NCBI RefSeq assembly: GCF_003259375.1
Contig: NZ_QLLN01000001.1
Coordinates: 163,360 to 227,359 of the forward strand
From: Arenibacter echinorum
GTDB taxonomy: Bacteria > Bacteroidota > Bacteroidia > Flavobacteriales > Flavobacteriaceae
Reading direction: 5' to 3'
Length of the DNA stretch: 64,000 bases
The notes under the pieces were generated by a model. It ran no database searches. It saw only the letters and a list, made by a program, of their open reading frames with translations, and had not been told where the DNA came from. Below, piece after piece: positions 5,750 through 51,944 of the stretch (its first letter is position 1; each line of letters starts with the position of its first letter). The translations under genes were made by a program, and so were the position numbers.

Positions 5750-5786
5750 CTCATGCCTTTAGTTTGCTGCGTATTTTTGAGTGTCG

Positions 5787-6182: not shown

Positions 6183-6640
6183 TTCAATGAGATAGGTACG
6201 CCTGGGCGTACCGTAATCGAATTGAATCCCGCCAATGGCGGGATATTTTATCCAACCTGTCTAATCGTAGGATTAAGCCAGGTTTGATTCCGCTAGCAGC
6301 GGAATATTATTTCGTTGAATAAAATCCTGCCAACGGCAGAAATGTTCTCTCATCTTTTTTTTCAATGAACTATATAATCGTTTCTTGGGCGTTCCCTTTT
6401 TTTCTTGTCCTGCAAGGTTTTCAAAACCTTGTAGGTCTATAAAAAGGTCGGGCTATCGGCTATATTTTTTTAATTTTTTCCTGAACACGGTCCAGGGAAA
6501 ATCAAAAAAGATGCCGCCTCTATCCCTAACGCGGTCGCCAAAGGTACTCCAAAAAGTATTCCAAAAAAAGTTTTGCTTGTCATCTTGTCATGTGTTATAT
6601 TTATAACTTTATATGTGAATATAGTTATAAATTTATATTT
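6183..6640. repeat. Cluster of short palindromes and a recurrent intergenic motif
   Basis: This stretch holds no gene but is unusually rich in perfect hairpins: GGTACGCC/GGCGTACC at 6195-6212, ATCCCGCC/GGCGGGAT at 6226-6244, ATTCCGCT/AGCGGAAT at 6287-6305, CTGCC/GGCAG at 6327-6339, and CAAGGTTTT/AAAACCTTG at 6413-6431. Three of them have a 3-base loop and similar AT-rich flanks, so they look like copies of one repetitive palindrome. The segment about 6388-6540 (GGGCGTTCCC, then GGTCGGGCTATC, then TATCCCTAACGC) resembles, from memory, an intergenic repeat seen in many Flavobacteriia. The tmRNA promoter must also lie here, reading leftwards. Confidence 0.55.
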
Positions 6641-36318: not shown

Positions 36319-36987
36319 TTAGTTTCTTAGTTTTATAATAGATCCTAATGTTTCGCGAACGGTATTTTCAAGTCCAACAAAATCCCCATTGGTTAATATT
36401 TCTTTACTGATAAGTTGGGAACCCAGTCCTACGCAGGTTACACCGGCATCAAACCATGCTTTTAAGTTGGAAACTTCAGTAGTGACCCCTCCAGTGGGCA
36501 TAATACTTGTCCAAGGTTGTGGGCCCTTAATGGCCTTTACAAAGGAAGGGCCGTAGGTAGCTCCGGGAAATAATTTTACAATTTCGCAACCCAATTCCTC
36601 GGCATTGTTAATTTCGGTGAGGGAACCACAGCCTGGAGACCAAAGGACTTTTCTTCTGTTACAGGCGATGGCAATATCTTCCCTTAGGGACGGGGTTACT
36701 ATAAAATTGGCCCCCATCTGCATATATAAAGATGCTGCGGCTGCGTCGGTAATGGAACCTACCCCGAGTATCATGCCCTGAAGTTCCTTGATGGCGAATT
36801 TGTTGAGTGCAGAAAATACTTCGAAGGCGAAGTCGCCCCTTGCGGTAAATTCCATCAATCTGGCACCCCCGTCATAGCAGGCCTTTAATACCTTCTTGCC
36901 CAATGCAATGTCCGAATGGTAGAATAAAGGTACCATTCCGGTTTCCTTCATTACTGTTGCTACTTCTATTCTTGTGTATTTTGCCAT
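36319..36987 (-). CDS. eda: KDPG / 4-hydroxy-2-oxoglutarate aldolase
   Basis: Eda splits 2-keto-3-deoxy-6-phosphogluconate to pyruvate and glyceraldehyde-3-phosphate, the last step of uronate breakdown. The 222-residue TIM barrel has the catalytic Glu46 in 'ARLMEFTARGD', the Schiff-base Lys138 in 'EIVKLFPG', the substrate loops 'GVGSITD' and 'VTPSL', and the phosphate-binding 'MPTGGVT'. Length and motifs fit class I KDPG aldolases. It is the first gene of a two-gene operon with the Nramp-like permease and lies downstream of the SDR/MFS genes, from which a hairpin separates it. Confidence 0.92.
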   Translation of the reverse strand: MAKYTRIEVATVMKETGMVPLFYHSDIALGKKVLKACYDGGARLMEFTARGDFAFEVFSALNKFAIKELQGMILGVGSITDAAAASLYMQMGANFIVTPSLREDIAIACNRRKVLWSPGCGSLTEINNAEELGCEIVKLFPGATYGPSFVKAIKGPQPWTSIMPTGGVTTEVSNLKAWFDAGVTCVGLGSQLISKEILTNGDFVGLENTVRETLGSIIKLRN

Positions 36988-37189: not shown

Positions 37190-37954
37190 TTAAATTCCTA
37201 AACCTTGTCCACCACCTATTTGGATAGTTTCGGCTGTAAGGAAAGCGGCATCTTTGCCAGCTAAAAATGAAATTACAGATGCTACTTCCTCAGGTTGCCC
37301 TAATCTTCCTAACAAAATATTGTTTTTCCAAGAAGCGAATACTTCTGGCTTAGTGGATTTAATTTCGGTATGGAAAGGGGTGTCAATGGTACCGGGAGAT
37401 ACCGCATTTACTCTAATCCCATATTCGGCAAGGTCTTTGGCCAATGCCCTGGTTATTGCATGGACACCCGCTTTGGATGTTCCATAAATTCCTGCTCCAG
37501 GTCCTCCGGCATTCCAACCGGCAATAGATGTATAATTAATTATAGTAGGAAGATCTCCTTTTTTTAGATAAGGTATGGCAGCTCTTGAAGCGAAAAACAC
37601 TGAATCAAGGTTTAACGCCATTACAAATCGGTAAAATTCAGTTGTCATTTCTTCAAATCTGGATCTTCCGCCAAGTCCACCTGCGTTGTTTACTAGAACA
37701 TCAATTTTCCCATATTTTTTCCCGATCTTATTAATGTTTGCCGTTACTTCGTCTTCCTTGGTAACATCAAATCCGTAATATTCAGCAGTGATGCCTTCCG
37801 CACTAAGCTCTTTAATTCTTTTAGCTCCAGCTTCATTATCGATACCGTTTAGGACAACAGTGTATCCGTCCTTGCCCAATCTTTGTGCCACTGCGAAACC
37901 AATACCCCCTGTTGCTCCTGTTATTACTGCTACTTTTCCTTTTGAATTGCTCAT
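37190..37954 (-). CDS. SDR oxidoreductase, candidate DEH reductase
   Basis: The 254-residue classical SDR has TGATGGIG (about residues 13-20), 'NNAGG' near 90, catalytic Ser in 'YTSIAGW' and Y-x-x-x-K in 'YGTSKAG'. 'IQIGGGQGLGI' ends the protein. In alginate-degrading bacteria an SDR reduces 4-deoxy-L-erythro-5-hexoseulose uronate (DEH) to KDG with NAD(P)H, and such genes lie beside kdgF, the MFS transporter and eda, as here. A second SDR in the same locus (45560-46312) is an alternative for that step, so the exact substrate cannot be fixed. It starts 31 bases after the MFS stop codon and is probably co-transcribed with it. Confidence 0.82.
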   Translation of the reverse strand: MSNSKGKVAVITGATGGIGFAVAQRLGKDGYTVVLNGIDNEAGAKRIKELSAEGITAEYYGFDVTKEDEVTANINKIGKKYGKIDVLVNNAGGLGGRSRFEEMTTEFYRFVMALNLDSVFFASRAAIPYLKKGDLPTIINYTSIAGWNAGGPGAGIYGTSKAGVHAITRALAKDLAEYGIRVNAVSPGTIDTPFHTEIKSTKPEVFASWKNNILLGRLGQPEEVASVISFLAGKDAAFLTAETIQIGGGQGLGI

Positions 37955-37984: not shown

Positions 37985-39286
37985 TTAATTTTTGCTTTTA
38001 AGCGGTTCAATTTTTGGGCATAATATCCATACACTCGCCATAGTTATTATAGCTAATGCTGCACCAATCACAAAGGCTGGTGTATAATTACCACCCGATG
38101 TAAGCCACGGGACTAGTGCTGTTAATCCAAATGCTCCTAGCTTAGCAGCCATTCCTGAAAACCCGGAAAGTGTACCTACTGTTTTTCCGCCAAATAAATC
38201 ACTAGGTAAGGTCTGAACATTTCCAATTGCTGTTTGGAAACCAAATAAAATAATTGCCATTAGTAACACCGCGATTTCAGGGCCTCCCGGATTGGCCATC
38301 GCAAGTAAGGCAGGTAACATAATGACACATCCAAGTGTGATTACGAACTTACGTGTTTTGTTCACTGTCCAACCTACTTTAATACGGTTTTGGGCTAGTA
38401 GTCCTCCAAACCAAGCTCCGATCATAGCCCCTACATAAGGTACCCAAGCATAAAAACCGATTGATTTTACATCCATTCCATAAACTTCGTTTAAGTAAAT
38501 GGGTATCCAAAAAACGAACAACCACCAAATCGGGTCGAGAGCAGCAGATGCAAGGATAACTCCCCAACTTTCTCTATGCTTTAGCATCTTACTAGTAGTA
38601 GGATTGTAACCTTCATCAAAATCCCCATCCTCATCTAAATCTTGGTTCTTCTGTCCAGTTAAGATGTATTCGCGTTCTTCATCTGTTATCCATGGGTGCT
38701 TTTTTGGTGGGGATTTCACTAAGATCCACCATGGAATAAGCCATAATAGCCCTACTACACCTACCAATATGAAAATATATTGCCAGTTGAAATAGACAGA
38801 TAATATTCCGATCGTGGGGAAGGCAATAATTCCTCCGATAGCTGCCCCTGAATTGAATAACCCCTGTGCAAATGCCCGTTCCTTTGTTGGAAACCATTCT
38901 GCATTTCCTTTTGCTGCTCCCGGCCAGTTTCCAGCTTCTGATATCCCTAACAAAGAGCGGAAAATACTAAGACTTACCACTCCCTTTGCAAAAGCATGCA
39001 TTGCGGTTGCAATTGACCAAAAACCAATAGATAGTGTAAACCCTATCCTTGTGCCCAGTTTGTCGAAAATTTTGCCGAATATAGCTTGCCCAAAAGCATA
39101 GGAAAATATGAATATGGTAGAGATTATTGCATAAATTCCTTTTCGTTCATCAGGCGTCTTTTCAGGATATAGATCCGCAGCAATATCAGGCCAAAGAACA
39201 GGTAGGGCTTGGCGATCTATATAATTGATAACTGTGGCTAAGGCGATGAGCCCAATAATCCACCATCTTAATCCTTTAATTTTCAT
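37985..39286 (-). CDS. MFS transporter, hexuronate (ExuT) type
   Basis: The 433-residue protein has 12 predicted membrane segments and belongs to the anion:cation symporter branch of the major facilitator family: 'IIGLIALATVINYIDRQALPVLWPDI' (helix 1), 'FGKIFDKLGTRIGF' (loop 2-3 motif) and 'GISEAGNWPGAAKGNAEWFPTKERAFAQGLFNSGAAIG'. This branch contains the hexuronate importer ExuT and the DEH transporters of alginate degraders. It should carry unsaturated uronate monomers or DEH across the inner membrane. It is followed by an SDR gene; the GntR regulator gene lies 235 bases upstream on the same strand. I see no copy of the TGGTNNACCA operator in that gap. Confidence 0.88.
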   Translation of the reverse strand: MKIKGLRWWIIGLIALATVINYIDRQALPVLWPDIAADLYPEKTPDERKGIYAIISTIFIFSYAFGQAIFGKIFDKLGTRIGFTLSIGFWSIATAMHAFAKGVVSLSIFRSLLGISEAGNWPGAAKGNAEWFPTKERAFAQGLFNSGAAIGGIIAFPTIGILSVYFNWQYIFILVGVVGLLWLIPWWILVKSPPKKHPWITDEEREYILTGQKNQDLDEDGDFDEGYNPTTSKMLKHRESWGVILASAALDPIWWLFVFWIPIYLNEVYGMDVKSIGFYAWVPYVGAMIGAWFGGLLAQNRIKVGWTVNKTRKFVITLGCVIMLPALLAMANPGGPEIAVLLMAIILFGFQTAIGNVQTLPSDLFGGKTVGTLSGFSGMAAKLGAFGLTALVPWLTSGGNYTPAFVIGAALAIITMASVWILCPKIEPLKSKN

Positions 39287-39521: not shown

Positions 39522-40229
39522 TCAATCCGGAATGTTGTAACAATATTGATATAGCATTTTAAAATGTACCTTCATTTTTTCCTTTGCCAATTGGGGGTCC
39601 TGTTTCTTTATCGCTTCATAAATATCCCTGTGCTCTTGAATTCCTATAAATGCTATATTCTTGTCGCAAACGTGATATTTGGTAAAGTTGGTAATGATCT
39701 CCGGTGTTATGGTCAGCATGAATGTATTAATGGTACTATTCCCACTTGCCTTGGCTATTGCCAAATGGAACAAGAGATCTTCCTGCACCGCATCTTCCCC
39801 GTTCATTACTTTTGTAGCATAAGCCTCCAAAGCCTCCTCTATTTCTTTCAATTCTTCCTTGGATCTTCTCAAGGCCGCCAATCTAACGGTTTTTAGCTCC
39901 AAAAGTATCCTTGTCTCCACCAAGGATTTGAAATCTGGTTTTTCCAATCTAAGAATATCAGTGATCATTCCATTCAATGCCACGGAGCCAATATCGGCAA
40001 CAAAGGTACCGCTCTGCGGCTTTGACTTTAACAGGCCATAGAACTCCAAGGTCTGTATGGCTTCCCTTACACTGCTTCTGCTCACTCCAAAATTTTCGGA
40101 AAGCTTTCTTTCCGAGGGTAATTTGTCCCCTGGCTCCAGGTTCTTGTAATTTATATAATCCCTGATCTTGGATATAATTTCTTTCTGAATTGCGTCGTTT
40201 TCGTTTTTCGGGAGAATTTCTATTTTCAT
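39522..40229 (-). CDS. GntR/FadR-family transcriptional regulator of the alginate locus
   Basis: The likely start is the ATG at 40229 (235 residues); a longer frame reaches 40295 but runs through the operator and promoter. Residues about 10-80 form a winged-helix domain ('GDKLPSERKLSENFGVSRSSVREAIQTLEFYGLLKSK'), and residues about 95-230 an FCD effector domain ('DLLFHLAIAKASGN', 'HRDIYEAI', a closing 'KVHF'), as in FadR, UxuR and ExuR. FCD domains bind small acids through a metal. Two operator copies precede it (40253-40275), and identical ones occur at three other promoters of the locus, so it probably represses all of them until a uronate intermediate such as KDG binds. Confidence 0.9.
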   Translation of the reverse strand: MKIEILPKNENDAIQKEIISKIRDYINYKNLEPGDKLPSERKLSENFGVSRSSVREAIQTLEFYGLLKSKPQSGTFVADIGSVALNGMITDILRLEKPDFKSLVETRILLELKTVRLAALRRSKEELKEIEEALEAYATKVMNGEDAVQEDLLFHLAIAKASGNSTINTFMLTITPEIITNFTKYHVCDKNIAFIGIQEHRDIYEAIKKQDPQLAKEKMKVHFKMLYQYCYNIPD

Positions 40230-40252: not shown

Positions 40253-40281
40253 TGGTTAACCAGATTGGTTTGTCAAATTTA
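40253..40281 (-). promoter_or_regulatory. Operator and -7 element of the GntR gene
   Basis: TGGTTAACCA at 40253-40262 and the decayed copy TGGTTTGTCA at 40266-40275 are 13 bp apart. On the minus strand the -7 element TAAATTTG (40281-40274) overlaps the decayed copy by 2 bases. The weaker second site would suit mild autoregulation. No good -33 element is seen. Confidence 0.75.
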
Positions 40282-40356
40282 GGTATAAAAGGCAATCGAG
40301 AAAAATATTACCTAATTATAATTCCAGCTTTGTTGCATTAACGTTACGATAATAAA

Positions 40357-40388
40357 AATTTACTGGCCTGACATCAAGCCAGTAAATT
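40357..40388 (-). terminator. susCD terminator
   Basis: AATTTACTGGC (40357-40367) and GCCAGTAAATT (40378-40388) form a perfect 11-bp stem with a T-rich tail on the minus strand. It lies about 180 bases after the SusD stop codon. Confidence 0.8.
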
Positions 40389-40565
40389 CTAAAACAAAAC
40401 TAACTAAACTACTAATCCTTGATGGGGTGTTCCAAAGCGATTAAGTGCATTTAAACCATTCTTTATTTATTCTTTACCTCCAACTTTTAAAACCGGACTT
40501 TAGCAAATGTTCTTTCATCCTTAATTTGAAGGTAATAAACGACCCTGTAATAATTTTATCTATTG

Positions 40566-41900
40566 TTAATATCCATCATTTTGGGTAATAACTCCATCGC
40601 TAGCAAGAATTTCTGAGTTTGGTATTGGAAACACATAGTAGTTACTACTAATCGTTGCTCCCATTTCTGCATCTACTGTGCCCGTTCTCACCAAATCAAA
40701 CCATCTATGTCCTTCAAGGGCCAACTCCAATCTTCTTTCGTCGGCAATGGCCTGTCTAACGTCGGCTTGTGAGCTTACTGTTCCAGTTAAACTATTTAAA
40801 CCTGCCCTAGTTCGTATAGGATCTAATAATGGAAGTACAGTTGCTGCAGCGGAGCCAGTTTCATTCAGTGCTTCCGCGTGCATTAGAATAACATCGGATA
40901 ACCTCATTTCTATAAAGTCCTGATCAAGAGCTCCAGTATATTTCTTACTACCATTCTGATTATCGGTATCAATAGTAAGCGTCTTTCTTAAATCCGTACC
41001 TCCTCCAGCAGCACTACTGGCGTCAAAAGCGGCCGTTAAGCGCGGATCTAAAGGTGTAAGAGATTTTGTATCTGCCCCGCTAACCCATCCTACAAAGGTG
41101 GTGGCTGATCCATATGCGTTTGGAACTGAAGTTGATAACTGGGTTGCAAAAATAATTTCTGAATTACCGTCTACTACAACGTTGGCATAGTCGCTTTCCA
41201 AACTAATCCCTGCAGCAGCAGCGCCGCTTACAACAGTTCCAAGCGTTGTTGCAGCTTCGGGAAAATTGCCTCTGAACAGATAAACTTTTCCTAGAAAAGC
41301 CTGAGCAGCGATTTTGGTTGCGCGTCCACTACTTAATCCGGAATTGCTCAAACCTGCTATTGCAGCTTGAAAGTCTGGGATTATTACATTATTGTATACG
41401 TCTGCGGCCGGTTGTCTTGCTAAAATGGACAAATCGGATGGACTGGGTGAAGGAGATAAATTCACGGTGACATCACCAAAAACAATCACCAATTTAAAGT
41501 AGGACAAAGCCCTTAAAAATTTGGCCTCCGCTATCTCAGTGGGCTTCGTTGAATTTTCAATGACGTTATTCGCACTTAAGATTGCCTTGTACAAATTGCT
41601 ATAGAAGGGGCGAAAGAATTGCTCCACCAAATCCAAACCTCCTAAATCTGCATTGTAGGTGTCAAAAGCCGTATATGGGCTTTCTAACATCAACATATTG
41701 TCGGCCCTAAAGTCGCCCATCACACCCATTGGTGTTGAACCACCGGTCTGATAGTAATATGCTGCGTTCAAAACAGGTCCATATTCCTCCAAACCACTGG
41801 ATTCAAGTAATAATGGTGGTGTTTGATCCAAATCGTTATCACATGCTGTTGTCAACAACAAGGAAACTAATACTATATAAATAGATTTCATTTTTTTCAT
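40566..41900 (-). CDS. susD-like: SusD/RagB-family glycan-binding lipoprotein
   Basis: The 444-residue protein has a lipoprotein signal (MKKMKSIYIVLVSLLLTTAC; Cys20) and is therefore on the outer-membrane surface after transport. The SusD fold is shown by the helical TPR-like part ('LYKAILSANNVIENS', 'EAKFLRALSYFKLVIVFGDV', 'AQAFLGKVYLFRGNFPEA') and the C-terminal 'LSDVILMHAEALNETG', 'ADERRLELALEGHRWFDLVRTG' and 'VFPIPNSEI'. SusD forms the lid over SusC and hands it oligosaccharides. It begins 10 bases after the susC stop codon, same operon. Given the lyases around it, alginate oligomers are the expected ligand. Confidence 0.95.
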   Translation of the reverse strand: MKKMKSIYIVLVSLLLTTACDNDLDQTPPLLLESSGLEEYGPVLNAAYYYQTGGSTPMGVMGDFRADNMLMLESPYTAFDTYNADLGGLDLVEQFFRPFYSNLYKAILSANNVIENSTKPTEIAEAKFLRALSYFKLVIVFGDVTVNLSPSPSPSDLSILARQPAADVYNNVIIPDFQAAIAGLSNSGLSSGRATKIAAQAFLGKVYLFRGNFPEAATTLGTVVSGAAAAGISLESDYANVVVDGNSEIIFATQLSTSVPNAYGSATTFVGWVSGADTKSLTPLDPRLTAAFDASSAAGGGTDLRKTLTIDTDNQNGSKKYTGALDQDFIEMRLSDVILMHAEALNETGSAAATVLPLLDPIRTRAGLNSLTGTVSSQADVRQAIADERRLELALEGHRWFDLVRTGTVDAEMGATISSNYYVFPIPNSEILASDGVITQNDGY

Positions 41901-41910
41901 GATTTCTTAA

Positions 41911-44900
41911 TTAAAAATTAACATTTATACCCAAAGTGAAACTTTTTACTAGAGGGCTCGCTCCTTCTTGGTATCCGTAAGTGGTTGGACCCGCATAACC
42001 ATCATTTTCAATCTCCACACCTTCGGGGTTAAATGAGGTATAATTGTCTGCCATTATGTACAACAAATTGGTAGCCGCAAGATATATTCTCATAGAACTT
42101 AAGCCAATTTTGTCTGTTAAATCAGAATCAAGTGTATATCCTAAAGTTATATTTCTTAAAGCAGTAAAGGAAGCATCCTGAATACCTGAACCATGAGCAT
42201 TTCTGGTCTCCTGATAAAACTTGCCACTTGCATCGGCAATACCGTCGTCATTGGCATCAAAACTGGACTTTAATCTACCGCCAAATTGTGATTTCCAGTA
42301 AATTGGGTCGATATTGTAAAGTTCTGCTCCTTGGGATCCTTGGAACTGGAACGAGAAATCAAAATTCTTTATGTTCATTGAACTTGAAAGTCCCCAATAG
42401 AAATCCGGTGTTGCGGATCCCAACTTTACATAATCTTCTTCATAGGTAATTTCACCGTCACCGTTTTGGTCCACAACATAATATTCTCCGCTTCCAAATC
42501 CAACGCCTCTTGATGGATCTGACATATGTATCGTTTCAACCTCACCAGTTACTTCGTATCCCCACATTTCACCAATTTCACCTCCTACATAGTTTCTAAA
42601 CTCTGGACCTCTACCACTGGGTCCACCGTAAATTTGCCTAGGCAGTTCGGTCAAATCGCCAAGATTGGTAATTTCTGATTCAGCAGTTGATAAATTGGCG
42701 TTGACATTCCAAGAGAAGTTTTGATTGGTAATTATTTTTGTACTAAGTTCAAACTCCAAACCGGAACTGGTAACATCACCTCGATTAAGTTTTATAGCAG
42801 GTGTCCCAAGAACCTCAGAAACACTTTGATTGATCAACATATCCTGGACATCAGACGTATAGTAATCAACACTAAATCTAATACGGTTACTTACAAAACC
42901 TAAATCAACACCATAGTTGGTCTCTTTATTGGTCTGCCATGTTAAATCTGGGTTTGCTATATCCTCAGGAATTAAAAATCCTGTCCCGAAAGCGGTCGGT
43001 GAGGTACCCAAAATACTTAATGAGTTGTATGAACCTAAGAAAGAAGCAGTTCCTAAAGATCCGGTACTAAACCTAAGTTTAAATAGGCTAAAAGCATCAG
43101 CATCTCCGAAAAAAGATTCATTATGAATATTCCAGCCTAAGGATAATGCTGGGAATACTGCGTATTTTTCATTGGCTCCAAATCGTGAGTCCCCATCCCT
43201 TCTAATGGATGCCGATAGTAGATAACGATCATCAAACGCATAGGCAATTCTTCCAAAAAAACCATTTCTTGACTGAGTCTCATCTATCTCGTTGGTAATC
43301 ACGTCTGCAGGATCAAAAAAATCATAATTTAAAGGCAGACCATATGGTACGTTCGATCCATTGTTTACAATTCCCTTATAATAGGTATTTACAAATTCCA
43401 TTCCCGCCACCGCAGAGATGTCATGTTTCTCAGCAAGTACTTTTGCATAACTCAATGTAGTTGTACTTAAGACGGTAGATTTTTTTATATTGGATATGTC
43501 CAATTCAGTTTGATTGGAACGTTGTTGACCATCTGTCAATATTCCGTGATATTCGTAGGTCTGGGTATCTTCCAAATCTGCTCCGAAAACAGTTTTTAAA
43601 TTTAAACCCTCTATGATTTCATATTGTAAATAAGAACTCACATTCCCAAAATACGTTTTTTTCCATCTTTGTGAATTATCAAATTTAGCCGCAACACCTG
43701 CATCTCCTGTTCCTCCAATACCATTTTGATTTCTACCGTATTGCCAATCGTGAGCTACATCACCAGGTTGCAAATCATAGATGCTTGTAGGATCTAGACC
43801 GATACCTCTATAATCTTGGTCAAATGATCTACCTATGTTATTTCCTGTAAATCCAGAATCGAATAATGCTTGTCTGTTACGATCCAATTGCTGAACGAAA
43901 TCTATTGAGGCTTGCGTATGGTAAATAGGACTAATGCTATATGATCTCAAAAGGTCTCTCATTTCCCAAGGAACAATATCTTGTTTACCATAATAACCAT
44001 TCATACTCAATCCGGCCTTTAACTTTTTACCCAAGTTGGCATCTAGGTTCATACGTCCGTTATATCTTTCATAACCTTGCCCTTTTACTATACCATCAGT
44101 TTTCAAATATCCGAGTGAAGCAAAGGCTTTTAAGTTTTCTGACCCTCCGCTCACACTAAAATCATGATTAGTGGTACTACCATTTTTGAAAAGCCAATCT
44201 TCTATGCTTACAACATCGGGTGCATTAGCGAATGCATCTAGTCTGTAAGCCAATAAACCTGGGTCGGTTTCGGAAAGATCATAAGCACTAGTTTGTAATT
44301 CTTCGGCCCATTCTCCTGCTGTCTTAAGCATTTCTATGTCCTTCACATACTTGCTCGAGGTACTTGCATATGAATTATAATTAAAACTAACTTTTCCTGC
44401 TTTTCCTTTTTTGGTGGTTACCAAAATAACACCATTGGCACCTAAAGAACCATAAATAGCAGCTGAAGCAGCATCTTTTAGCACCTCTAAACTTTCAATA
44501 TCGTTGGGATTAACGGTTGCCAAATTACCTGAAATTGGATAACCATCCACAACAATTAACGGCCCAGAGTCACCCGAAACAGATGAAGCTGCCCTAATTT
44601 GGATCTTAGGATCCGCACCAGGTTCTCCACTTTGATTTTGAATCCGTACCCCGGATAACTTACCTGCAAGAGCATCATCAACACGGGCTACTTGAACAGC
44701 AGCAACTTCATCTCCGCCTACTTTCGCGACCGCTCCGGTAAGATGCGATTTTTTTATAGTACCATATCCAACTACTACTACCTCATCAAGTTGACTTGCA
44801 TCTTCTTGTAGGGTGATATTCAATTGTTCTTGATTTGTAATGGGGATTGATTGGGAAACAAATCCCAAGGACGAAAACTGCAGTACGTCCCCGTTTTTTA

Positions 44901-45093
44901 CCGTAATTTGATAATTTCCATCAAAGTCGGTTGCTGTACCGGTAGTAGTATTGGCAATAATTACATTCACTCCAGGTACTGGGACCTTGGCAGCATCCGT
45001 TACCGTTCCAGACAGCATACGTCCATCCTGGGCAAACAGTGCAATGTTGAATAACAATACTACTGTTAGAATTAAATTAGTTTTGAATTTCAT
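41911..45093 (-). CDS. susC-like: SusC/RagA-family TonB-dependent transporter
   Basis: The 1060-residue outer-membrane transporter has a signal peptide (to about residue 21), a carboxypeptidase-regulatory-like domain (about 25-100; 'LSGTVTDAAKVPVPGVNVIIANTTTGTATDFDGNY'), a TonB box/linker ('LDEVVVVGYGTIKKS'), a plug domain (about 115-225; 'VDDALAGKLSGVRIQNQSG', 'ESLEVLKDAASAAIYGSLGANGVILVTTK') and a 22-strand barrel ending 'FTLGINVNF'. It should import alginate oligosaccharides with TonB energy, together with the SusD protein. The gene has an unusually long leader: the operator-promoter is at 45411-45452, about 340 bases upstream, and a candidate antisense RNA lies in between. Confidence 0.95.
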   Translation of the reverse strand: MKFKTNLILTVVLLFNIALFAQDGRMLSGTVTDAAKVPVPGVNVIIANTTTGTATDFDGNYQITVKNGDVLQFSSLGFVSQSIPITNQEQLNITLQEDASQLDEVVVVGYGTIKKSHLTGAVAKVGGDEVAAVQVARVDDALAGKLSGVRIQNQSGEPGADPKIQIRAASSVSGDSGPLIVVDGYPISGNLATVNPNDIESLEVLKDAASAAIYGSLGANGVILVTTKKGKAGKVSFNYNSYASTSSKYVKDIEMLKTAGEWAEELQTSAYDLSETDPGLLAYRLDAFANAPDVVSIEDWLFKNGSTTNHDFSVSGGSENLKAFASLGYLKTDGIVKGQGYERYNGRMNLDANLGKKLKAGLSMNGYYGKQDIVPWEMRDLLRSYSISPIYHTQASIDFVQQLDRNRQALFDSGFTGNNIGRSFDQDYRGIGLDPTSIYDLQPGDVAHDWQYGRNQNGIGGTGDAGVAAKFDNSQRWKKTYFGNVSSYLQYEIIEGLNLKTVFGADLEDTQTYEYHGILTDGQQRSNQTELDISNIKKSTVLSTTTLSYAKVLAEKHDISAVAGMEFVNTYYKGIVNNGSNVPYGLPLNYDFFDPADVITNEIDETQSRNGFFGRIAYAFDDRYLLSASIRRDGDSRFGANEKYAVFPALSLGWNIHNESFFGDADAFSLFKLRFSTGSLGTASFLGSYNSLSILGTSPTAFGTGFLIPEDIANPDLTWQTNKETNYGVDLGFVSNRIRFSVDYYTSDVQDMLINQSVSEVLGTPAIKLNRGDVTSSGLEFELSTKIITNQNFSWNVNANLSTAESEITNLGDLTELPRQIYGGPSGRGPEFRNYVGGEIGEMWGYEVTGEVETIHMSDPSRGVGFGSGEYYVVDQNGDGEITYEEDYVKLGSATPDFYWGLSSSMNIKNFDFSFQFQGSQGAELYNIDPIYWKSQFGGRLKSSFDANDDGIADASGKFYQETRNAHGSGIQDASFTALRNITLGYTLDSDLTDKIGLSSMRIYLAATNLLYIMADNYTSFNPEGVEIENDGYAGPTTYGYQEGASPLVKSFTLGINVNF

Positions 45094-45255
45094 TAGTGAT
45101 TTAATTAAGTTAGTAACAATTGATTAATAATGGCTTATATGCCATTGGTTCCTATAATGTGATATTGTTCACATTTAATCCTTCAACTTACTTAAACATT
45201 TAGCTGCACTAATATTTAATGAAATTGCTTATTTTTGCAGTAAATATGTTTATAG

Positions 45256-45341
45256 TAATATTTGCATGTTTGGTATTACTTCCCTTCAGAATGAAGTAAT
45301 CTTTTTACAAAAGGATGGGTGTGCGCCCGTCCTTTTTTTTT
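45256..45341 (+). ncRNA. Candidate antisense small RNA opposite the susC leader
   Basis: On the plus strand there is a promoter-like pair: TTG at 45235-45237 and TAATATTTG at 45256-45264 (one base longer than the consensus TAnnTTTG). It is followed by a hairpin ATTACTTC/GAAGTAAT (45275-45300) and a GC-rich terminator hairpin AAGGATGGG/CCCGTCCTT (45311-45334) with nine T (45333-45341). A transcript of about 70-75 bases is implied. No plus-strand gene lies upstream, so the terminator needs this RNA to make sense. It would be fully complementary to the susC mRNA leader. In Bacteroides, antisense RNAs at susC starts (DonS type) repress the operon. The alternative is a structured element of the susC leader itself. 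Confidence 0.5.
45311..45341 (+). terminator. Plus-strand terminator in the susC leader region
   Basis: A 9-bp stem (one G-T pair), loop of six bases, and nine consecutive T on the plus strand. On the minus strand the tail is poor, so it is oriented plus. Confidence 0.75.
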
Positions 45342-45410
45342 GGTCAAATCCTATGGTTTATTTTCGAGTATTTTTCTGTTAACATGGTTCTTAAAGTTTT
45401 TAGTTTCTTT

Positions 45411-45452
45411 TGGTAAACCAAAGTGGTTAACCAGTTTGGTTTACCAAATATA
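45411..45452 (-). promoter_or_regulatory. Triple operator and promoter of susCD
   Basis: Three palindromes occur at an exact 13-bp period: TGGTAAACCA (45411-45420), TGGTTAACCA (45424-45433) and TGGTTTACCA (45437-45446). On the minus strand the -7 element TATATTTG (45452-45445) runs into the last one. The sites therefore cover the start of transcription, as repressor sites do. The -33 element is weak (TTA, 18 bases away). Confidence 0.82.
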
Positions 45453-45559
45453 TGTTATTTAATTGTTAATTAAAAATTTAATTGCAATTTTTGTTTGTTA
45501 AAATTTTGGAGGTGATAATTTAGGGGTATAGAAATTATCAATTTCGCATTAAAGCTATT

Positions 45560-46312
45560 TTACGAAAAGGCAAGTCCACCATTAATATCGATGTTTGCAC
45601 CTGTAATAAATGATGTTTCGGATGAAGCCAGACAGGCTACTGCATTTGCAATTTCCTCTGCCGAGCCTTCCCTGCGAAGTGGGGTCATTCCCGCTACTTT
45701 CTCCCGTACCTCATCTGTAGTGAAGGTATCGTGAAAGGTGGTGGCGATCATTCCGGGACAAAGGGCATTTACCCGAATATTTTTTGGGCCTACCTCCTTG
45801 GCCAGACCTCGTGTAAAGGTCATTATAGCTCCTTTTGAAGTTGCATAGGCTATAGATCCTCCGCCCCCACCGTCCCGACCGGCTTGGGAGGCTATATTTA
45901 CTATAGAGGCCCCAGATTTCATATGGGGCAGTACTGCTTGTGTTACAAGAAAGGTAGAATTAAGATTCAATTTTATCACCTTGTCAAAAAAGGCTTCGTC
46001 CATCTCGGCTATTGTCTTCCTGGCCACTAGGCCACCGGCGTTGTTTACCAAGACGTCTATTGTTTCTCCATAGTTGCTAATGGTTTCCTTTATAAGTTTG
46101 TCTACTTCAGATTTCTTGGTCACATCCGCCTTGACAATTATTGCTTCGCCACCGGCCGATTCAATTGCGTTAAGAGTTTCTTGGGCATTTGCCTCGTTGC
46201 TATAGTAATTTACTACAACCTTGGCGCCTTCCTTGGCCAATTTTATGGAAATGGCCTTTCCAATATCCCTAGTGCCACCAGTAACAATGGCTATTTTTCC
46301 TTTTAAATTCAT
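45560..46312 (-). CDS. SDR oxidoreductase of the lyase/kdgF operon
   Basis: The 250-residue SDR reads TGGTRDIG at the nucleotide-binding turn (Asp in place of the usual middle Gly, a variant seen in other FabG-like proteins), 'NNAGG' near 92, Ser in 'NIASQAG' and Y-x-x-x-K in 'YATSKGA'. It ends 'TGANIDINGG', typical of FabG-like SDRs. It is the third gene of an operon after the PL7 lyase and kdgF (48 bases after kdgF), which makes it the better candidate for the DEH reductase that turns the KdgF product into KDG. It shares only general SDR features with the other SDR at 37190, so the two may act on different intermediates. Confidence 0.85.
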   Translation of the reverse strand: MNLKGKIAIVTGGTRDIGKAISIKLAKEGAKVVVNYYSNEANAQETLNAIESAGGEAIIVKADVTKKSEVDKLIKETISNYGETIDVLVNNAGGLVARKTIAEMDEAFFDKVIKLNLNSTFLVTQAVLPHMKSGASIVNIASQAGRDGGGGGSIAYATSKGAIMTFTRGLAKEVGPKNIRVNALCPGMIATTFHDTFTTDEVREKVAGMTPLRREGSAEEIANAVACLASSETSFITGANIDINGGLAFS

Positions 46313-46360
46313 ATGTGTTGTTTATGACATAAAGTCTTCCCGAATGGGGCGGTTTTTTAA

Positions 46361-46738
46361 TTATGACTTCTTATCTCCAAAATAAGAAACCGCTCCACCG
46401 CTTAAGAAATCTTCCCTTACAGGACTAAATGTGTCAATTAGTATCCCTTCTTCCAAACAAACTGCACTGTGCAATAGATTAGGTTCAATATAAACTCCAT
46501 CTCCTGCTTCTACAATTTTCTTTTCTCCATTAATTTCAAATTCAAATTTGCCTGAAGCACAATAGGTAGCTTGGGTATGAAAATGTTTATGTGGGGAACC
46601 TAATGCTCCTTTTTCAAACTTCACTTTTACCATCATGATTTGGTTATCGTACCCCAAAAACTGTCTTGATACTCCTCCTCCAAGTTCTTCCCATTCCATT
46701 TCTTTTGTGGTGATGTACTTTTCACTAAATCGTTTCAT
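46361..46738 (-). CDS. kdgF: Cupin KdgF, unsaturated uronate linearisation
   Basis: KdgF converts the 4,5-unsaturated uronate released by lyases to its open keto form (DEH). The 125-residue single cupin has the metal-binding row 'GSPHKHFHTQATYCASGKFEF' (H50, H52, H54, Q56) and the second motif 'AGDGVYIEPNLLHSAVC' (H90), as in known KdgF proteins. Length matches. It is cytoplasmic. It lies between the tandem PL7 lyase and an SDR gene in one operon under the operator at 49031-49053, which strongly supports a role in alginate use. Confidence 0.92.
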   Translation of the reverse strand: MKRFSEKYITTKEMEWEELGGGVSRQFLGYDNQIMMVKVKFEKGALGSPHKHFHTQATYCASGKFEFEINGEKKIVEAGDGVYIEPNLLHSAVCLEEGILIDTFSPVREDFLSGGAVSYFGDKKS

Positions 46739-46809
46739 TTTTTTTTGATTTTAATTAGTCTTTACTCTTTTTTAATTACGATCAACTCTTTTATACGGAT
46801 CAAGTCGAT

Positions 46810-48864
46810 TTACTTTGGGGGTGTACCCTGACCTACGGTTGCTTCCCTAAACCATACTTCCGTATAACATCCGTTTTCGTATTGTTTGGCGATATCACCT
46901 CCGTAGGTTTCCGCACCTGAAAACCAAACCATGTTGGTTTCTGGACTTTTTCCATTGGTCTGGTTATAAGCGCCTTGTTTAAAATAATTCAATTCTCCAC
47001 TATAGGCAGTGGCACGTTCAATGGCGTCTTGCCCTATGGGGGCGAATAATTGCTTCATCTGTTCAGGGAAGTCCGACTTTTTAACATATTCTGATGATAT
47101 CAGATTTTTGGTAAATGTTTTGGTTTCGTGATTTTCACTTTTGAAGGTTAGATACATGATTCCCTTATAAACATTTACTTCATAACTAAATTCTTCACCT
47201 AATTCAATGCCATTTTTAGGTTCAGCAGGAAAGTCGTTTATACCTTTCCCAATGACGGACATATCGTTCCCCCATACGGCATAGGAATGTTCCCACCGGC
47301 CTGAATTATCATCCCCTACTGGATTGATTTCATAATTCCAAAAAACGGAACCCTTGGTGTGACCAGGAAATTTCTTGTAGAATATTTTAAGAGGTTCATT
47401 TTCATGTCCTTCACCACTGTGAATTTGCCCCACAACAGTGGAATAGGATGCAGCTACTCTGGCATCGCCAGAAATGGAGACCTGCATTACCTTGCAGGTG
47501 CCTGTTAGTTTGCCACCTTCTTCAGGGAGCCATTCTCTTTTTTCGTGTAGTTCGGTTCTTGTATTACTGGAGTTTTTTGAAGTGACACCAGAATTTGGAG
47601 TTTTGTAGACTACCCAACGCCTTGTACCGTCTATTACACTGTAGAAGAAATCTTTGTGTTCGAACTGCGTGATATCTTCCACCTCCTTACCGTCACCCAG
47701 CAATATTTTAAATTTATCCATAAATGGAATCACCTCATTGGGATAGACCGTTTTAGTACTTAGGCCATCATTTGCTTCGAAATAACCTGTATTAGAAATG
47801 GCGTCATCGCTGATTGTGATATCTGCGGATTTAAACCAAACCTCGGCGTAATTGCCATCTGCATATTGTTTTTGTATATCACCACCATGGGTTTCGGCCC
47901 CAGAACACCAGACTTTATTAACCTTAGGGTCTTTTCCGTTCGTTTGGTTGTATGTGCCCAATTTAAAAAAGAGACCCTCACCGGTATACGCTTCTTTGCG
48001 CTCGAGGCCATCCTGCCCAATGGGTACAAATAATTTCTTGGTTTGCTCTGGCATGTCCGAAAGATTTGCATATTCAGAGGAAATAAGATTTTTAGTAAAT
48101 TTTTTGGTCTCATGGCCTTCACTCGTGAATGTTAGATGCATCATACCTTCCTTAATAACTACTTCATAAGTGAATTCTTCACCTAAGGCAATTCCGTCAA
48201 CTGGTTCAGGTGGATAGGTGTTTTCATCAGTACCGACAACAGAAAAGTCATAGCCCCATATAGGATAGGAATAATCCCATCTTTTGGAATTATCATCACC
48301 TGCAGTATTTATTTCGTAATGCCAAAAGACAGAGCCTTTTTCATGCCCAGGAAATTTTTTATAGAAGATTTTAAGTGGTTCGTTTTCATGCCCATCTGCA
48401 CTGTGAATCTGACCAACTACTACTGAATACGTTGAAGCAACGCGGGCATCGCCGGTAGTTGACACGTTCATTACCTTTAGGGTCGCTTTCATAGTAGCTT
48501 CTGTCATTGGTGTCCACTTCTTTAATTGGGCCAATTCGGTTCTTGTATTGTTCGAGGTACCATGGGTATTTCCTGCATTTGGAGTTTTGAATACTACCCA
48601 ATCGCCATGATCATCACTCGCAGTATAAAAGTAATTCTTGTTCTCATAGTCAAGAGCTTGGCCTACATTAGAGCCATCACCTAGGATCAAATTCCAATGT
48701 TGAAAAAATGGTATAATGTCGTTTGGACTACGACCTATAGCTGCGTTTTCAGAATTGTCTGTAGATTCTTGTTTTTTGTTTTCTTTACAGCCAATAAATA
48801 GCAAAATGGTACTCATCATGAATAAATAATGTACCGAAACCGAATTGAATATTTTAAAGTTCAT
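46810..48864 (-). CDS. Alginate lyase with two tandem PL7 domains, lipoprotein
   Basis: From the ATG at 48864 the protein has 684 residues and a lipoprotein signal (FIGCKEN; Cys26). It contains two full PL7 beta-jelly-roll domains, about 48-345 and 376-680. The catalytic motifs recur exactly 328 residues apart: RTEL at 108 and 436, QIH at 152 and 480, and YNQ at 305 and 633. The Arg, Gln, His and Tyr of the PL7 site are therefore kept in both. The usual RTELR is RTELAQ and RTELHE here. It should cut alginate by beta-elimination at the cell surface. It leads an operon with kdgF and an SDR, behind the operator-promoter at 49031-49081. Confidence 0.93.
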   Translation of the reverse strand: MNFKIFNSVSVHYLFMMSTILLFIGCKENKKQESTDNSENAAIGRSPNDIIPFFQHWNLILGDGSNVGQALDYENKNYFYTASDDHGDWVVFKTPNAGNTHGTSNNTRTELAQLKKWTPMTEATMKATLKVMNVSTTGDARVASTYSVVVGQIHSADGHENEPLKIFYKKFPGHEKGSVFWHYEINTAGDDNSKRWDYSYPIWGYDFSVVGTDENTYPPEPVDGIALGEEFTYEVVIKEGMMHLTFTSEGHETKKFTKNLISSEYANLSDMPEQTKKLFVPIGQDGLERKEAYTGEGLFFKLGTYNQTNGKDPKVNKVWCSGAETHGGDIQKQYADGNYAEVWFKSADITISDDAISNTGYFEANDGLSTKTVYPNEVIPFMDKFKILLGDGKEVEDITQFEHKDFFYSVIDGTRRWVVYKTPNSGVTSKNSSNTRTELHEKREWLPEEGGKLTGTCKVMQVSISGDARVAASYSTVVGQIHSGEGHENEPLKIFYKKFPGHTKGSVFWNYEINPVGDDNSGRWEHSYAVWGNDMSVIGKGINDFPAEPKNGIELGEEFSYEVNVYKGIMYLTFKSENHETKTFTKNLISSEYVKKSDFPEQMKQLFAPIGQDAIERATAYSGELNYFKQGAYNQTNGKSPETNMVWFSGAETYGGDIAKQYENGCYTEVWFREATVGQGTPPK

Positions 48865-49030
48865 ATGATATGGATTATGTTTTCTATAAAAACCGTAAAA
48901 AGTCATTTTTTTAACGGCTAGGATAATTTCTTCAACAATCTAAAAGAAACCTTCTATCAGATGGTTTTACCTGCACTTCTACGATAATGAAAGCCATTAA
49001 AAAACAGAGCGAAAGTGATTTTGTAAAAAT

Positions 49031-49081
49031 TGGTTTACCAGATTGGTTTACCAAAAATACGCAAATTTGTGGAACCACCAA
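49031..49081 (-). promoter_or_regulatory. Operator and promoter of the PL7-kdgF-SDR operon
   Basis: TGGTTTACCA occurs at 49031-49040 and 49044-49053, 13 bp apart. On the minus strand TTG (49081-49079), 19 bases, and TATTTTTG (49059-49052) make a consensus promoter. Its -7 element runs into the first operator copy. Confidence 0.85.
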
Positions 49082-49265
49082 ATATTTAACATTAAATCGA
49101 TCTGTTTTATCTTTAATTAATAATATTCTATCTGTGAAATTGCTAATTCAGTAAATGTGAATTTTGCTCAAATAGAGTATTGTATAGGGGGTAGTCAAAA
49201 AAGAATTTGGGATTAAGGTTCTTTATTCCAAAAGACCGCTAAATAATAGACCTTATAAGAGCTAA

Positions 49266-49409
49266 TCAAATTAGAAGCAATGGTATTACATCGCTTGGAT
49301 AAATTGTGACTTTTATGTCTTCATTATTTGACTTCTTAGCGGTATTAAGACAGCTATTTAATGCTGCTATATGAGCTGGTACGAATAATTTTGCAATTAT
49401 GGCGGCCAT
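49266..49409 (-). CDS. Possible 47-residue small protein between the lyase genes
   Basis: An ATG at 49409 opens a 47-codon frame (starts MAAIIAKLFVPAHIAALNSC, ends PLLLI) that closes at 49266. The composition is protein-like and it lies on the same strand as the lyases, 90 bases after the PL6 stop codon. There is no recognisable family, no ribosome-binding evidence and no homology that I can cite. It may be chance or a gene remnant. Confidence 0.2.
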   Translation of the reverse strand: MAAIIAKLFVPAHIAALNSCLNTAKKSNNEDIKVTIYPSDVIPLLLI

Positions 49410-49499
49410 TTTAATAGGTTTTAATTTTTGTTTATTTCTTTTTAATTAGAAACATTAGATGTAGTCCTTGCAAAGTGGCTTAATGACAGGGGGATTGGT

Positions 49500-51809
49500 T
49501 TAGTACAGTAATTTCATTTCTAAATTCTCTTCAACACGGATTTCCCCTGAATTGCTTATCTCATTGTCCGAATGGGTATTGTTTTTCGCTCCCCAAAGTA
49601 AGGCTACCAGTTTTACCGGATTGTTTTTAAAGGTGTTTTTGGAAATATCGACATTTACAATGCCATGGGAGTTGATCAGAATACCGTTTTTTTCTTGAGC
49701 ACCACAATTGGTAAAGGTGCTGTTGGTGACCAACAGATTCCCACCAATGGTAGATTCGTCATAACCTCCGCGATAGTAATCTATGACATTGTTTTTTACA
49801 TTGGAGAACCGGCAATTATCTACAGTTAGGTATTCAGTGTTATAATCTCCTAGATCATTAGTTTCTTCAGATAGTTCCAAACCATTTTCGCAATTTGATA
49901 TTGAAGTATTTTCAAAGGTGATACGTTCTGCAAAGGACTCCTTATAGACCTTTAAGACATAATTAAAATCACTGATATCACAATCGGCAACCGTTAAACC
50001 AAAATGTGTAAACATATTTTCTTTTAAACTGGCGAATACATATTGGTAATTATTTCCTTTTAGGGTTACATTTTTTAGGTTTAAAAATCCTTTAGGTTGA
50101 AGTTGGAATAGTGGTGAATTTTCTGCTCCCGAATAATTTAGGATCACTTTCGACTTATCCAAAGATTTAATGGTCAACTCTTTATTGATAACCAAGGATT
50201 GTGGGATGTCATAATTTCCTGCTTCCAATGAAATGATGTCCCCATTTTCGGCCTCATTGATTTTAGTTTGTAGATTTTCTGCTTTGCCTACAGCTACAGT
50301 TTTAGGCTCTGGAGCTTCATCTTCAACTGAATACCAGCTTGGGCCATATTTGGATCTTTCCAAAATTTTTGGGTCTTTAAAATCCGTAGAGACAAAGGCT
50401 CCAATGGAGTTGTTTTTAGCTCTGGAACTGCCGACCAAATCTTTGGATATTTTTTCAAATTCGAACCCTTTGTAAGGTTCGATAGCTATTTTGGAAGAAG
50501 GGATAGCAATATTTTCCGCAATTTCTTTAATGTCAAAAATTACAGCCTCCAAGCCGTCATAGGGTTTAAAATCCACCCCTTGATTATGGATTGCGTTGCT
50601 TTTAAAGGTCACTCCATCGGCCTTATCGTGTTCCACAATCGGTGACGTATCACCTTTTTCATTATAAATTACATTGTTTGCTATAATGGTCCTTATGGGT
50701 CTGGCAGAGCGAATCTCAGAGGAAGGCAGAACATCTTCCTGACTTAAATTTTGACCAACTCCGAATTGCCAAGGGGAATCGCAATTGATGTAGGTATTAT
50801 AAGCGACCACTACATCGGTAACCTGATTGTATCTATTTTGGGGGGATTTTGGAATTCCGTTCATTACGGCCAGGGCACTTCTAAAATTCTTTCCTTTTAT
50901 ATTATAGAAGTAATTGTTGGTTACCCAATGCCCTGTGTTGATGATTCTGATACCTCCTATGTTTTCGTTTTTACCATCGCCAATAAAGTAATTGCCATCA
51001 ATAGTGCAGTAATTGCCATGTCTTGTTACCAAAGAACCTTCGCTTTTATAAAAGACATTATTTCTGAACTCATTGAAGTTGGTTTTGCTGGAAATAATTT
51101 CTACTTCACCGTTGCACTCTTCAAATAAGTTATTGGCAACCATTGTATAACTTGGGGACATAGAAGAAAAACTGTTGCCAATTTGAATGGTCTCGCCACT
51201 GGCACCACCTTTGGGAGGTCTTGGTCCAAAATGGTTGTATACGATTTGATGGTAATTGTTTATACTCTCATTGCCTTCCAAGTCCACCCTAATGGTGGGT
51301 CCGCGATTAGTTTTTCCCGCAATGTAATTATTGCTTAAGGTATTGTGTCTTCCCCAGAATTGAACCCAGAGATCCGTATCATCACGATGCATCTTATTAA
51401 AATCCTCAATAACACAATTGGTAAGGGTGCAGTGATTTGCTATCGTATTCGCATCTATTCTAAATTCCAATACTGCTTCACTTGGCGAATAACCATTTCT
51501 AAAGTGCAGGCCATCCACCACTAAGTACTTCCCTCCAAATTTTAAATCGGATACGCCTTCAATAAAAACTTTTCCAGGTGTTTCAGCTTTAATGGTGATT
51601 GGCTTGTCTTCTGTGCCTTCGCCTATAAATTTAATGCGGACATCTTTCCATATACCATTGGCCAACACAATGTTATCGCCAGCCTGCACATTTTTTATGG
51701 CTTCTTCCAATTCTTCAGGAGTGCTAACCGTTTTAGTGTTAAGATTGGTCTTATCCCCACAAGCGCCGATAATAAACAAAAAGCACAGCAACGTTACTAG
51801 TCTAGTCAT
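49500..51809 (-). CDS. Alginate lyase family PL6 (chondroitinase-B fold), two-domain lipoprotein
   Basis: The 769-residue lyase has a lipoprotein signal (IIGACGDK; Cys17). The N-terminal parallel beta-helix (about 25-400) carries the PL6 site: E235 and E237 (NGEVEIIS), K242 and R263 (TRHGN), corresponding to the calcium-binding acids and the Brønsted base and acid of known PL6 enzymes. A second beta-helix (about 500-760; 'GDIISLEAGNYDIPQSLVINKELTIKS', then repeated 'N-x-F' turns) makes it the large, two-domain form of the family. It probably removes units from alginate or polyMG at the surface. It is alone behind its own operator-promoter at 51847-51897, divergent from a sugar isomerase-like gene. 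Confidence 0.93.
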   Translation of the reverse strand: MTRLVTLLCFLFIIGACGDKTNLNTKTVSTPEELEEAIKNVQAGDNIVLANGIWKDVRIKFIGEGTEDKPITIKAETPGKVFIEGVSDLKFGGKYLVVDGLHFRNGYSPSEAVLEFRIDANTIANHCTLTNCVIEDFNKMHRDDTDLWVQFWGRHNTLSNNYIAGKTNRGPTIRVDLEGNESINNYHQIVYNHFGPRPPKGGASGETIQIGNSFSSMSPSYTMVANNLFEECNGEVEIISSKTNFNEFRNNVFYKSEGSLVTRHGNYCTIDGNYFIGDGKNENIGGIRIINTGHWVTNNYFYNIKGKNFRSALAVMNGIPKSPQNRYNQVTDVVVAYNTYINCDSPWQFGVGQNLSQEDVLPSSEIRSARPIRTIIANNVIYNEKGDTSPIVEHDKADGVTFKSNAIHNQGVDFKPYDGLEAVIFDIKEIAENIAIPSSKIAIEPYKGFEFEKISKDLVGSSRAKNNSIGAFVSTDFKDPKILERSKYGPSWYSVEDEAPEPKTVAVGKAENLQTKINEAENGDIISLEAGNYDIPQSLVINKELTIKSLDKSKVILNYSGAENSPLFQLQPKGFLNLKNVTLKGNNYQYVFASLKENMFTHFGLTVADCDISDFNYVLKVYKESFAERITFENTSISNCENGLELSEETNDLGDYNTEYLTVDNCRFSNVKNNVIDYYRGGYDESTIGGNLLVTNSTFTNCGAQEKNGILINSHGIVNVDISKNTFKNNPVKLVALLWGAKNNTHSDNEISNSGEIRVEENLEMKLLY

Positions 51810-51846
51810 AGTTAATGAATTTAAGGTAGCACTTATAAATAATAAT

Positions 51847-51897
51847 TGGTTAACCAGATTGGTTAACCAAAAATACGTATATTTGTTGAACTAACAA
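51847..51897 (-). promoter_or_regulatory. Operator and promoter of the PL6 gene, shared with the divergent gene
   Basis: TGGTTAACCA at 51847-51856 and 51860-51869 are perfect and 13 bp apart. On the minus strand TTG (51897-51895), 19 bases, and TATTTTTG (51875-51868) form a consensus promoter that merges with the operator. The same DNA is also the upstream region of the plus-strand gene at 51945. Confidence 0.87.
51859..51885 (+). promoter_or_regulatory. Possible plus-strand promoter of the isomerase-like gene
   Basis: TATATTTG at 51878-51885 is a perfect -7 element on the plus strand; a TTG at 51859-51861 lies 16 bases upstream, one less than the usual range. The TTG falls within the second operator copy, so a bound repressor would block this promoter too. 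Confidence 0.5.
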
Positions 51898-51944
51898 ATT
51901 TTTAACATAAAAACTATCATTGCTTAATAAATCATAGCTATAAA

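Follow-up and report, generated by a model that had tools for sequence, protein, structure and literature searches.

Probable tandem operators of an AusR-type regulator and a predicted antisense small RNA at the alginate locus of Arenibacter echinorum

Which elements switch the alginate genes of Arenibacter echinorum, and does the control end with a repressor at the promoters? The question is raised by a stretch of 64,000 nucleotides of this species (NCBI RefSeq assembly GCF_003259375.1, contig NZ_QLLN01000001.1, positions 163,360 to 227,359 of the forward strand; hereafter the window, with positions counted from its first letter). Alginate is a major brown-algal polysaccharide, and the Flavobacteriaceae are among its main users. 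An initial annotation of the window had proposed that one GntR protein acts through one palindromic operator at four promoters, namely those of its own gene gntR, of the uptake genes susCD, of an operon of a polysaccharide lyase of family 7 (PL7), kdgF and a short-chain dehydrogenase/reductase (SDR), and of a PL6 lyase gene. Judged from the operator sites in the window, the genome and related genomes, a GntR/FCD repressor of the AusR type very probably controls the alginate operons of this locus. On the strand opposite the susC leader, a gene for an antisense small RNA is predicted; neither AusR nor such an RNA had figured in the annotation.

The palindrome TGGTNNACCA has eight exact copies in the window, where 1.14 are expected and 100 shuffled sequences reach four at most. 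All eight lie within the four promoter sites, in agreement with the annotation, which had seen no further copies. Perfect pairs with a 13-bp period and no mismatch begin at 45411, 45424, 49031 and 51847. The first two make up the triple operator of susCD (45411-45446, minus strand), as originally read, while exact double operators of the same period precede the PL7-kdgF-SDR operon (49031-49053, minus strand) and the PL6 gene (51847-51869, minus strand). Tandem pairs had been described for all four promoters; this holds for these three and not for gntR, whose pair (40253-40275, minus strand) has two mismatches. It consists of a perfect copy at 40253-40262 and a degenerate copy at 40266-40275, the second on the plus strand and the first on the gene strand, which reads TGGTTTGTCA.

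In a scan of the whole 5.19 Mb genome, perfect 13-bp pairs were confined to the alginate locus, as the proposal of a local regulon had implied, and none was found elsewhere. With up to three mismatches, 13-bp pairs occurred at 27 places (five in the window) versus 28 for the reversed control, and single copies of TGGTNNACCA numbered 101 versus 101 in the control. Since single copies are at control level, the signal resides in the tandem arrangement only. For comparison with relatives, named genomes were scanned and the best 80 of 83 loci were kept (69-100% identical, mostly Flavobacteriaceae); these are loci and not genomes, some strains contributing two. The 80 loci contain 294 exact operator copies. 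Where successive exact copies lay no more than 60 bp apart (n = 94), the distance was 13 bp in 82 cases, 26 bp in 11 and 45 bp in one, and 12 control palindromes gave no pair at 13 bp in the same loci.

The relation of the operators to the promoters can be read directly in the window, where each minus-strand -7 element shares its TG with the first gene-strand operator copy at all four promoters, as had been noted before. These elements are TAAATTTG for gntR (40274-40281), TATATTTG for susCD (45445-45452), and TATTTTTG for both PL7 (49052-49059) and PL6 (51868-51875). The PL7 promoter (49052-49091) and the PL6 promoter (51868-51907) also carry TTG 19 bp before the -7 element (49079-49081 and 51895-51897, respectively) and an upstream box with TGTTAAA. 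A -33 TTG and a -7 TAnnTTTG form the consensus cited in a passage of PMC4306948. Promoter rows were taken where the target was named and an operator array lay within 250 bp of a start. In 70 of these 106 rows the first copy has its TG in common with TAnnTTTG, and any other offset occurred at most twice. By target, TG sharing was found in 14/14 rows for PL7, 7/7 for PL6, 21/23 for susC, 1/1 for susD and 27/61 for gntR. Counts were also made per gene, with an exact copy sought within 330 bp (susC, PL7, PL6) or 130 bp (gntR). TAnnTTTG stood at the first exact copy in 14/14 PL7 and 5/6 PL6 promoters, and TTG was found 19 bp before the -7 element in 14/14 PL7, 5/5 PL6 and 12/28 susC promoters. This family-wide footprinting supports an operator that spans the -7 element and the presumed start, as the annotation had placed it.

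The composite of -7 element and operator, TANNTTTGGTNNACCA, was also used to look for a wider regulon in the A. echinorum genome. This was rejected, with 71 matches at up to one mismatch versus 61 in the control, and five exact matches, three of them in the window. The two exact sites outside the alginate locus are both single and likely due to chance: one lies inside a reading frame (C13), the other (C2:768641; L126 at 6642) is intergenic, between a regulator-like and a sensor-like gene, both named by eye.

The regulator gene itself, gntR (39522-40229, minus strand, ATG taken at 40229), encodes 235 amino acids with a GntR helix-turn-helix domain (PF00392) and an FCD domain (PF07729). These domains and a palindrome of the TKGT/ACMA type are what is found in the FCD-containing GntR/FadR subfamily. 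The predicted structure (pLDDT 86.5, pTM 0.75) retrieved GntR/FCD entries with Foldseek, with a best E-value of 1.6e-9 and TM-scores of about 0.4-0.6. In 59 aligned GntR sequences D151, H155, H200 and H222 are invariant, which we take to be the Asp-His-His-His metal site of FCD. Compared with the GntR proteins of two Zobellia-type loci (L187 and L188), the protein of the window is 66-68% identical.

Among the gntR genes of the window and the 80 loci, 81 in all, 59 have an exact operator copy within 130 bp. None of these 59 has a perfect copy 13 bp further upstream: the 5′ half of the upstream copy is always damaged, whereas 39 retain an intact 3′ half. The corresponding copy before the last exact one is perfect at 25/46 susC promoters (14 more have one mismatch), 14/14 PL7 and 5/6 PL6 promoters. 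At 17 of the 59 gntR promoters the upstream copy has at least four mismatches, and these may be true single sites. Judging by the conserved damage, the degenerate first copy would be expected to weaken self-repression.

Regulator and operator also occur together. In a survey of 299 genomes of Flavobacteriaceae, with GntR called at E 1e-50, GntR was present in 74 genomes and perfect operator pairs in 69 (reversed pattern: 0), and 68 genomes had both. With GntR in 68 of the 69 genomes with pairs, this co-occurrence and the footprinting together favor the proposed scheme of one GntR, one operator and four promoters.

Several observations weigh against so uniform a picture. One genome (G154) has a perfect pair without AusR, and six AusR genomes have no perfect pair; four of these six were viewed for about 1.5 kb on each side of gntR, where one (G225) has a degenerate pair and the other three have none. 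No exact copy was found within 330 bp of 28/74 susC, 4/18 PL7 and 3/9 PL6 genes, or within 130 bp of 22/81 gntR genes. Only 28 of 46 susC promoters have TAnnTTTG at their first exact copy; a frequent reason for its absence is a degenerate copy further upstream. The octamer 13 bp further upstream at gntR is TAnnTTTG in 29/59 and TAnnTTTN in 46/59 cases. Finally, the relatives share ancestry, so that counts of loci and genomes are not independent. As a separate observation, four Maribacter strains carry a second AusR-like gene in another locus (L087, L088, L091, L093).

The upstream box raises the possibility that the lyase promoters answer to a second regulator as well, with AusR making up no more than a part of their switch. 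The box, TGTTAAANATTTGNNNGTNNNNCAAAT, occurs in the A. echinorum genome solely at the PL7 and PL6 promoters (49065-49091 and 51881-51907, minus strand) and is not present in the susC and gntR promoter consensus. With up to one mismatch, 25 sites (L201-L225) were found in 21 of the 299 genomes, and the box lies at a fixed 38 bp before a perfect operator pair at 9/9 exact and 6/16 one-mismatch sites. Of the genes behind these 15 sites, 11 are of PL6, PL7 or PL17, two are small and kinase-like, one is Nramp-like and one frame is unclassified. However, an operator is absent at 9 of the 16 one-mismatch sites, the reversed control gave five sites, and the box includes the -33 TTG; shared promoter descent would explain it too, and there is no candidate protein. 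We regard a second regulator as possible and rather unlikely. A like promoter also precedes a small kinase-like gene of 161-166 amino acids in three loci (L206, with a degenerate operator, L207 and L216). The gene of L207, the one tested, matches PF01202 (shikimate kinase), and genes of this sort might be additional members of the regulon. Divergent genes flank the PL6 operator. The one on the plus strand, at 51945 (PF01261, TIM barrel), has TATATTTG in its own orientation at 51878-51885; judged by this arrangement, the operator might serve both genes.

The AusR regulon of Zobellia galactanivorans was reportedly the subject of Dudek et al. in 2020. Two genomes of one genus have loci of the AusR kind with like operator sites, and one of them has two GntR copies 5.4 kb apart. 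The alginate lyase AlyA3 is presumably an enzyme of Zobellia. In the other genome of that genus, a PL17 lyase aligns over 751 residues (1663 bits) with PDB 7bjt, which a passage of PMC12336832 identifies as AlyA3. Excerpts on AusR of Zobellia (PMC8286568, PMC8073546, PMC7874173) describe a repressor of the GntR family that acts on alginate genes and binds single, double or triple operator copies (PMC7874173), the binding being inhibited by alginate breakdown products (PMC7874173, PMC8286568, PMC8073546), and a duplicated AusR is reported in one of them (PMC8073546). The Arenibacter locus likewise has a GntR/FCD gene inside the alginate locus and double and triple operators at alginate promoters, and the Zobellia-type loci carry the same sites. 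On these features it is a member of the AusR kind, and the core of the finding is already known. It differs from Zobellia in that no PF05426 (PL17-type) lyase was found in the genome and in that the likely kinase of 2-keto-3-deoxygluconate (KDG) lies outside the locus. NanR of E. coli is also a GntR/FCD repressor with dimers side by side on a repeated operator; according to a section of PMC8012715, however, it binds direct GGTATA repeats, whereas the Arenibacter copies are palindromic with a 13-bp period. For UxuR, of the FadR subfamily, an excerpt of PMC4494728 gives TKGT/ACMA boxes in which GT and AC are separated by 2 nt. The GT-N2-AC spacing of the Arenibacter operator agrees with this, in line with the earlier assignment of the half-site to the UxuR/ExuR type, although the tandem 13-bp arrays and the alginate genes set Arenibacter apart. 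What is added to the known core, as read from the compared loci, is the 13-bp register and the TG/-7 overlap in 80 loci, the degeneracy of the gntR copy, the co-occurrence of GntR and operator pairs, and the predicted antisense RNA. With one promoter-operator design conserved across many genera, promoter strength becomes predictable and testable.

The RNA is predicted from a terminator-like hairpin in the susC leader. On the plus strand, a -7 element TATTTTTG (45230-45237), of the form TAnnTTTG that is conserved before the terminator, would give an RNA of about 97 nt (45241-45340; start point predicted) with hairpins at 45241-45272 and 45275-45300, the latter with a C-rich loop, followed by a terminator at 45309-45336 and a U run. 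The hairpin sequence is unique in the genome, and the small-RNA model has one match there. A search with the hairpin sequence was positive in 43 of the 299 genomes (reversed control: 0). At 58 of 65 hairpin loci the opposite strand carries TAnnTTTG at a distance of 60-95 nt upstream of the hairpin, versus about 0.02 expected per locus. The window RNA folds with z -5.73 on the plus strand, where none of 200 shuffles was as stable, and with z -2.72 on the minus strand. All 49 distinct sequences form the three-hairpin fold on the antisense strand, and the antisense fold is the more stable one in 44. For the first hairpin, which is variable in sequence, the mean z was -3.04 antisense (48/49 below -1) and -0.96 sense (22/49).

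A covariance model, the E-values of which are rough like those of the second model below, matched 58 of the 80 named loci with E-values under 1e-4; 31 of these 58 had contributed to building it. At all 58 loci, the small RNA is flanked by an operator copy with at most one mismatch on one side and by the susC start on the other, the latter 64-152 nt past the small-RNA -7 element. In the 299 genomes, under strict filters, the small-RNA model matched in 58 of the 74 AusR-positive and in none of the 225 other genomes. This second model was built partly from the family hairpin search, which ignored AusR, and many of the 299-genome sequences went into it. All 61 matches share a contig with gntR, 58 of them within 12 kb. 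Five of the six AusR genomes lacking a perfect operator pair carry the small RNA.

Covariation was analyzed in 68 distinct rows, drawn from 75 sources with a match cutoff of E 1e-7, the alignment being fitted to the model. Standard pairs occupy 89.9% of pair cells, as against 43-54% when the structure is slid along the alignment, and the covariation score is 0.301 versus 0.04-0.09. On a plain alignment RNAalifold recovered only the terminator stem, because the first hairpin was misaligned there; the covariance-model alignment, which leans towards the structure of the model by design, recovered the first hairpin. Among nine Arenibacter leaders, conservation was 0.907 in the small RNA, 0.824 and 0.748 in the flanking leader, and 0.883 at the susC start. 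No Rfam family matched the small RNA or the stretch at gathering score; this is not a claim that the RNA is unpublished, as no literature search was aimed at it. The best sub-threshold match was the S15-Flavobacteria leader (28.5 bits versus a threshold of 46.5).

A number of results speak against the antisense RNA. TTG stands 19 bp before its -7 element in only one of 49 sequences, 22 of the 80 loci have no match (nine are Maribacter loci, and several sequences are so short that the leader may not be included), and 16 of the 74 AusR genomes have none under the strict filters. Furthermore, no more than 64.3% of cells are paired in the outermost helix, and 8 of 500 shuffles have at least as many doubly changed pairs. 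On balance, we consider it probable, with somewhat less confidence than the role of AusR, that the antisense small RNA exists. The second loci of the four Maribacter strains have no small-RNA match, and their first loci (L043, L040, L037, L039) have one. A weak second match (35 bits, E 0.002) lies in a Zobellia-type locus (L188:2229-2342, minus strand).

In arrangement, the predicted RNA resembles DonS of Bacteroides, described in a portion of PMC7366714 as antisense RNAs of 78-128 nt to susC homologues of polysaccharide utilization loci that lower susC expression. At all 58 model-matched loci the Arenibacter-type RNA is antisense to a susC homologue, and its predicted length of about 97 nt falls within that range. 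The two differ in bacterial family and substrate, and the likeness is one of arrangement. If expressed, the predicted RNA would place an antisense RNA of conserved structure at a carbohydrate-uptake locus outside Bacteroides, and it would offer a simple system for studying the joint control of susCD by an RNA and a repressor.

Alternatively, other messages could be the main targets of the small RNA, reached in trans by its C-rich loop (CCCTYC), and its position at susC would be secondary. Loop positions C55 and T56 are nearly invariant in the 49 sequences, and the helices are maintained by double changes, which plain antisense pairing does not require. Against this, complements of the loop (four short patterns) are few in the window, with none placed at the start codon of an alginate gene, and the position opposite the susC leader is kept in 58/58 loci; we consider action mainly in trans unlikely, a little more so than a second regulator at the lyases. 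Still less probable is that the hairpin acts in the sense transcript as a susCD attenuator, with no antisense RNA at all. It does lie within the susC leader, the sense strand folds too, as given above, and its fold is the more stable one in 5 of the 49 sequences. Yet at stem pair 4 the antisense strand has U-G or U-A where the sense strand has C.A or U-A (35 and 19 of 54 distinct sequences), the longer U run is antisense (an A run of mean length 7.2 precedes the sense stem, a T run of 3.9 follows it), and it is the antisense strand that has the -7 element at suitable distance and mostly the stabler fold. That the tandem palindromes themselves are an RNA hairpin at message 5′ ends, an attenuator or stabilizer instead of protein operators, was rejected as highly improbable, for although a pair can fold as an inverted repeat and a terminator scan flags the PL6 site as terminator-like, of 82 exact pairs, only 5 have complementary central dinucleotides, against 16.2 expected, and 41 have identical ones, against 29.7 expected, so that the copies behave as repeats and not as hairpin arms.

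With protein operators and an antisense RNA as the preferred reading, the following mechanism is proposed. GntR/FCD dimers would bind the 10-bp palindromes, and two or three of them, 13 bp apart, would line up next to one another so as to cover the promoter from the -7 element across the start site, presumably leaving RNA polymerase unable to open the promoter by steric block. An alginate breakdown product, perhaps the KDG or 4-deoxy-L-erythro-5-hexoseulose uronate that the annotation had suggested, would release the repressor, and weaker autoregulation through the damaged first gntR copy would keep a repressor pool. At susCD, a second layer would be added by the small RNA, transcribed from the opposite leader strand under a separate -7 element, ending at its own terminator and lacking an operator. 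Most likely it would pair with the leader and lower susCD output when little susCD is made; for this role we see an even chance. Transcription of susC across the small-RNA gene would in turn disturb the small RNA, the facing promoters disturbing each other. Whether the alginate loci of Flavobacteriaceae thus contain a two-layer switch with a dedicated, structurally conserved antisense RNA, in which AusR blocks the susCD start, the RNA removes leaked leaders and strong susC transcription shuts the RNA promoter, we judge to be evenly balanced.

The genes of the locus, all on the minus strand, comprise a KDPG (2-keto-3-deoxy-6-phosphogluconate) aldolase (36319-36987, PF01081), an SDR (37190-37954, PF13561) that is perhaps a reductase of 4-deoxy-L-erythro-5-hexoseulose uronate by analogy with the FlRed cluster described in part of PMC4306948, and a major facilitator superfamily transporter (37985-39286, PF07690) downstream of gntR. 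They are followed by a susD-like gene (40566-41900, PF07980), the gene of the susC-like TonB-dependent transporter (41911-45093, PF13715 and PF07715), a second SDR (45560-46312, PF13561), a KdgF-like cupin (46361-46738, PF07883), the PL7 alginate lyase with two lyase stretches (46810-48906, PF08787) and the PL6 lyase (49500-51809, PF14592). The regulon had been called self-contained, which fits the transporter, SDRs, KDPG aldolase, lyases, KdgF and susCD and fails for the likely KDG kinase. The latter lies on another contig and shares 60% identity with the kinase of a Zobellia-type cluster. Behind it comes a second KDPG aldolase, which has 77% identity with that of the window. Control of the kinase by the operator was rejected, as no exact copy was found in the 4-kb stretch around it. 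Elsewhere in the window, transfer-messenger RNA and Flavo-1 RNA (Rfam RF01705) are neighbors on the minus strand at 5784-6182 and 6442-6543.

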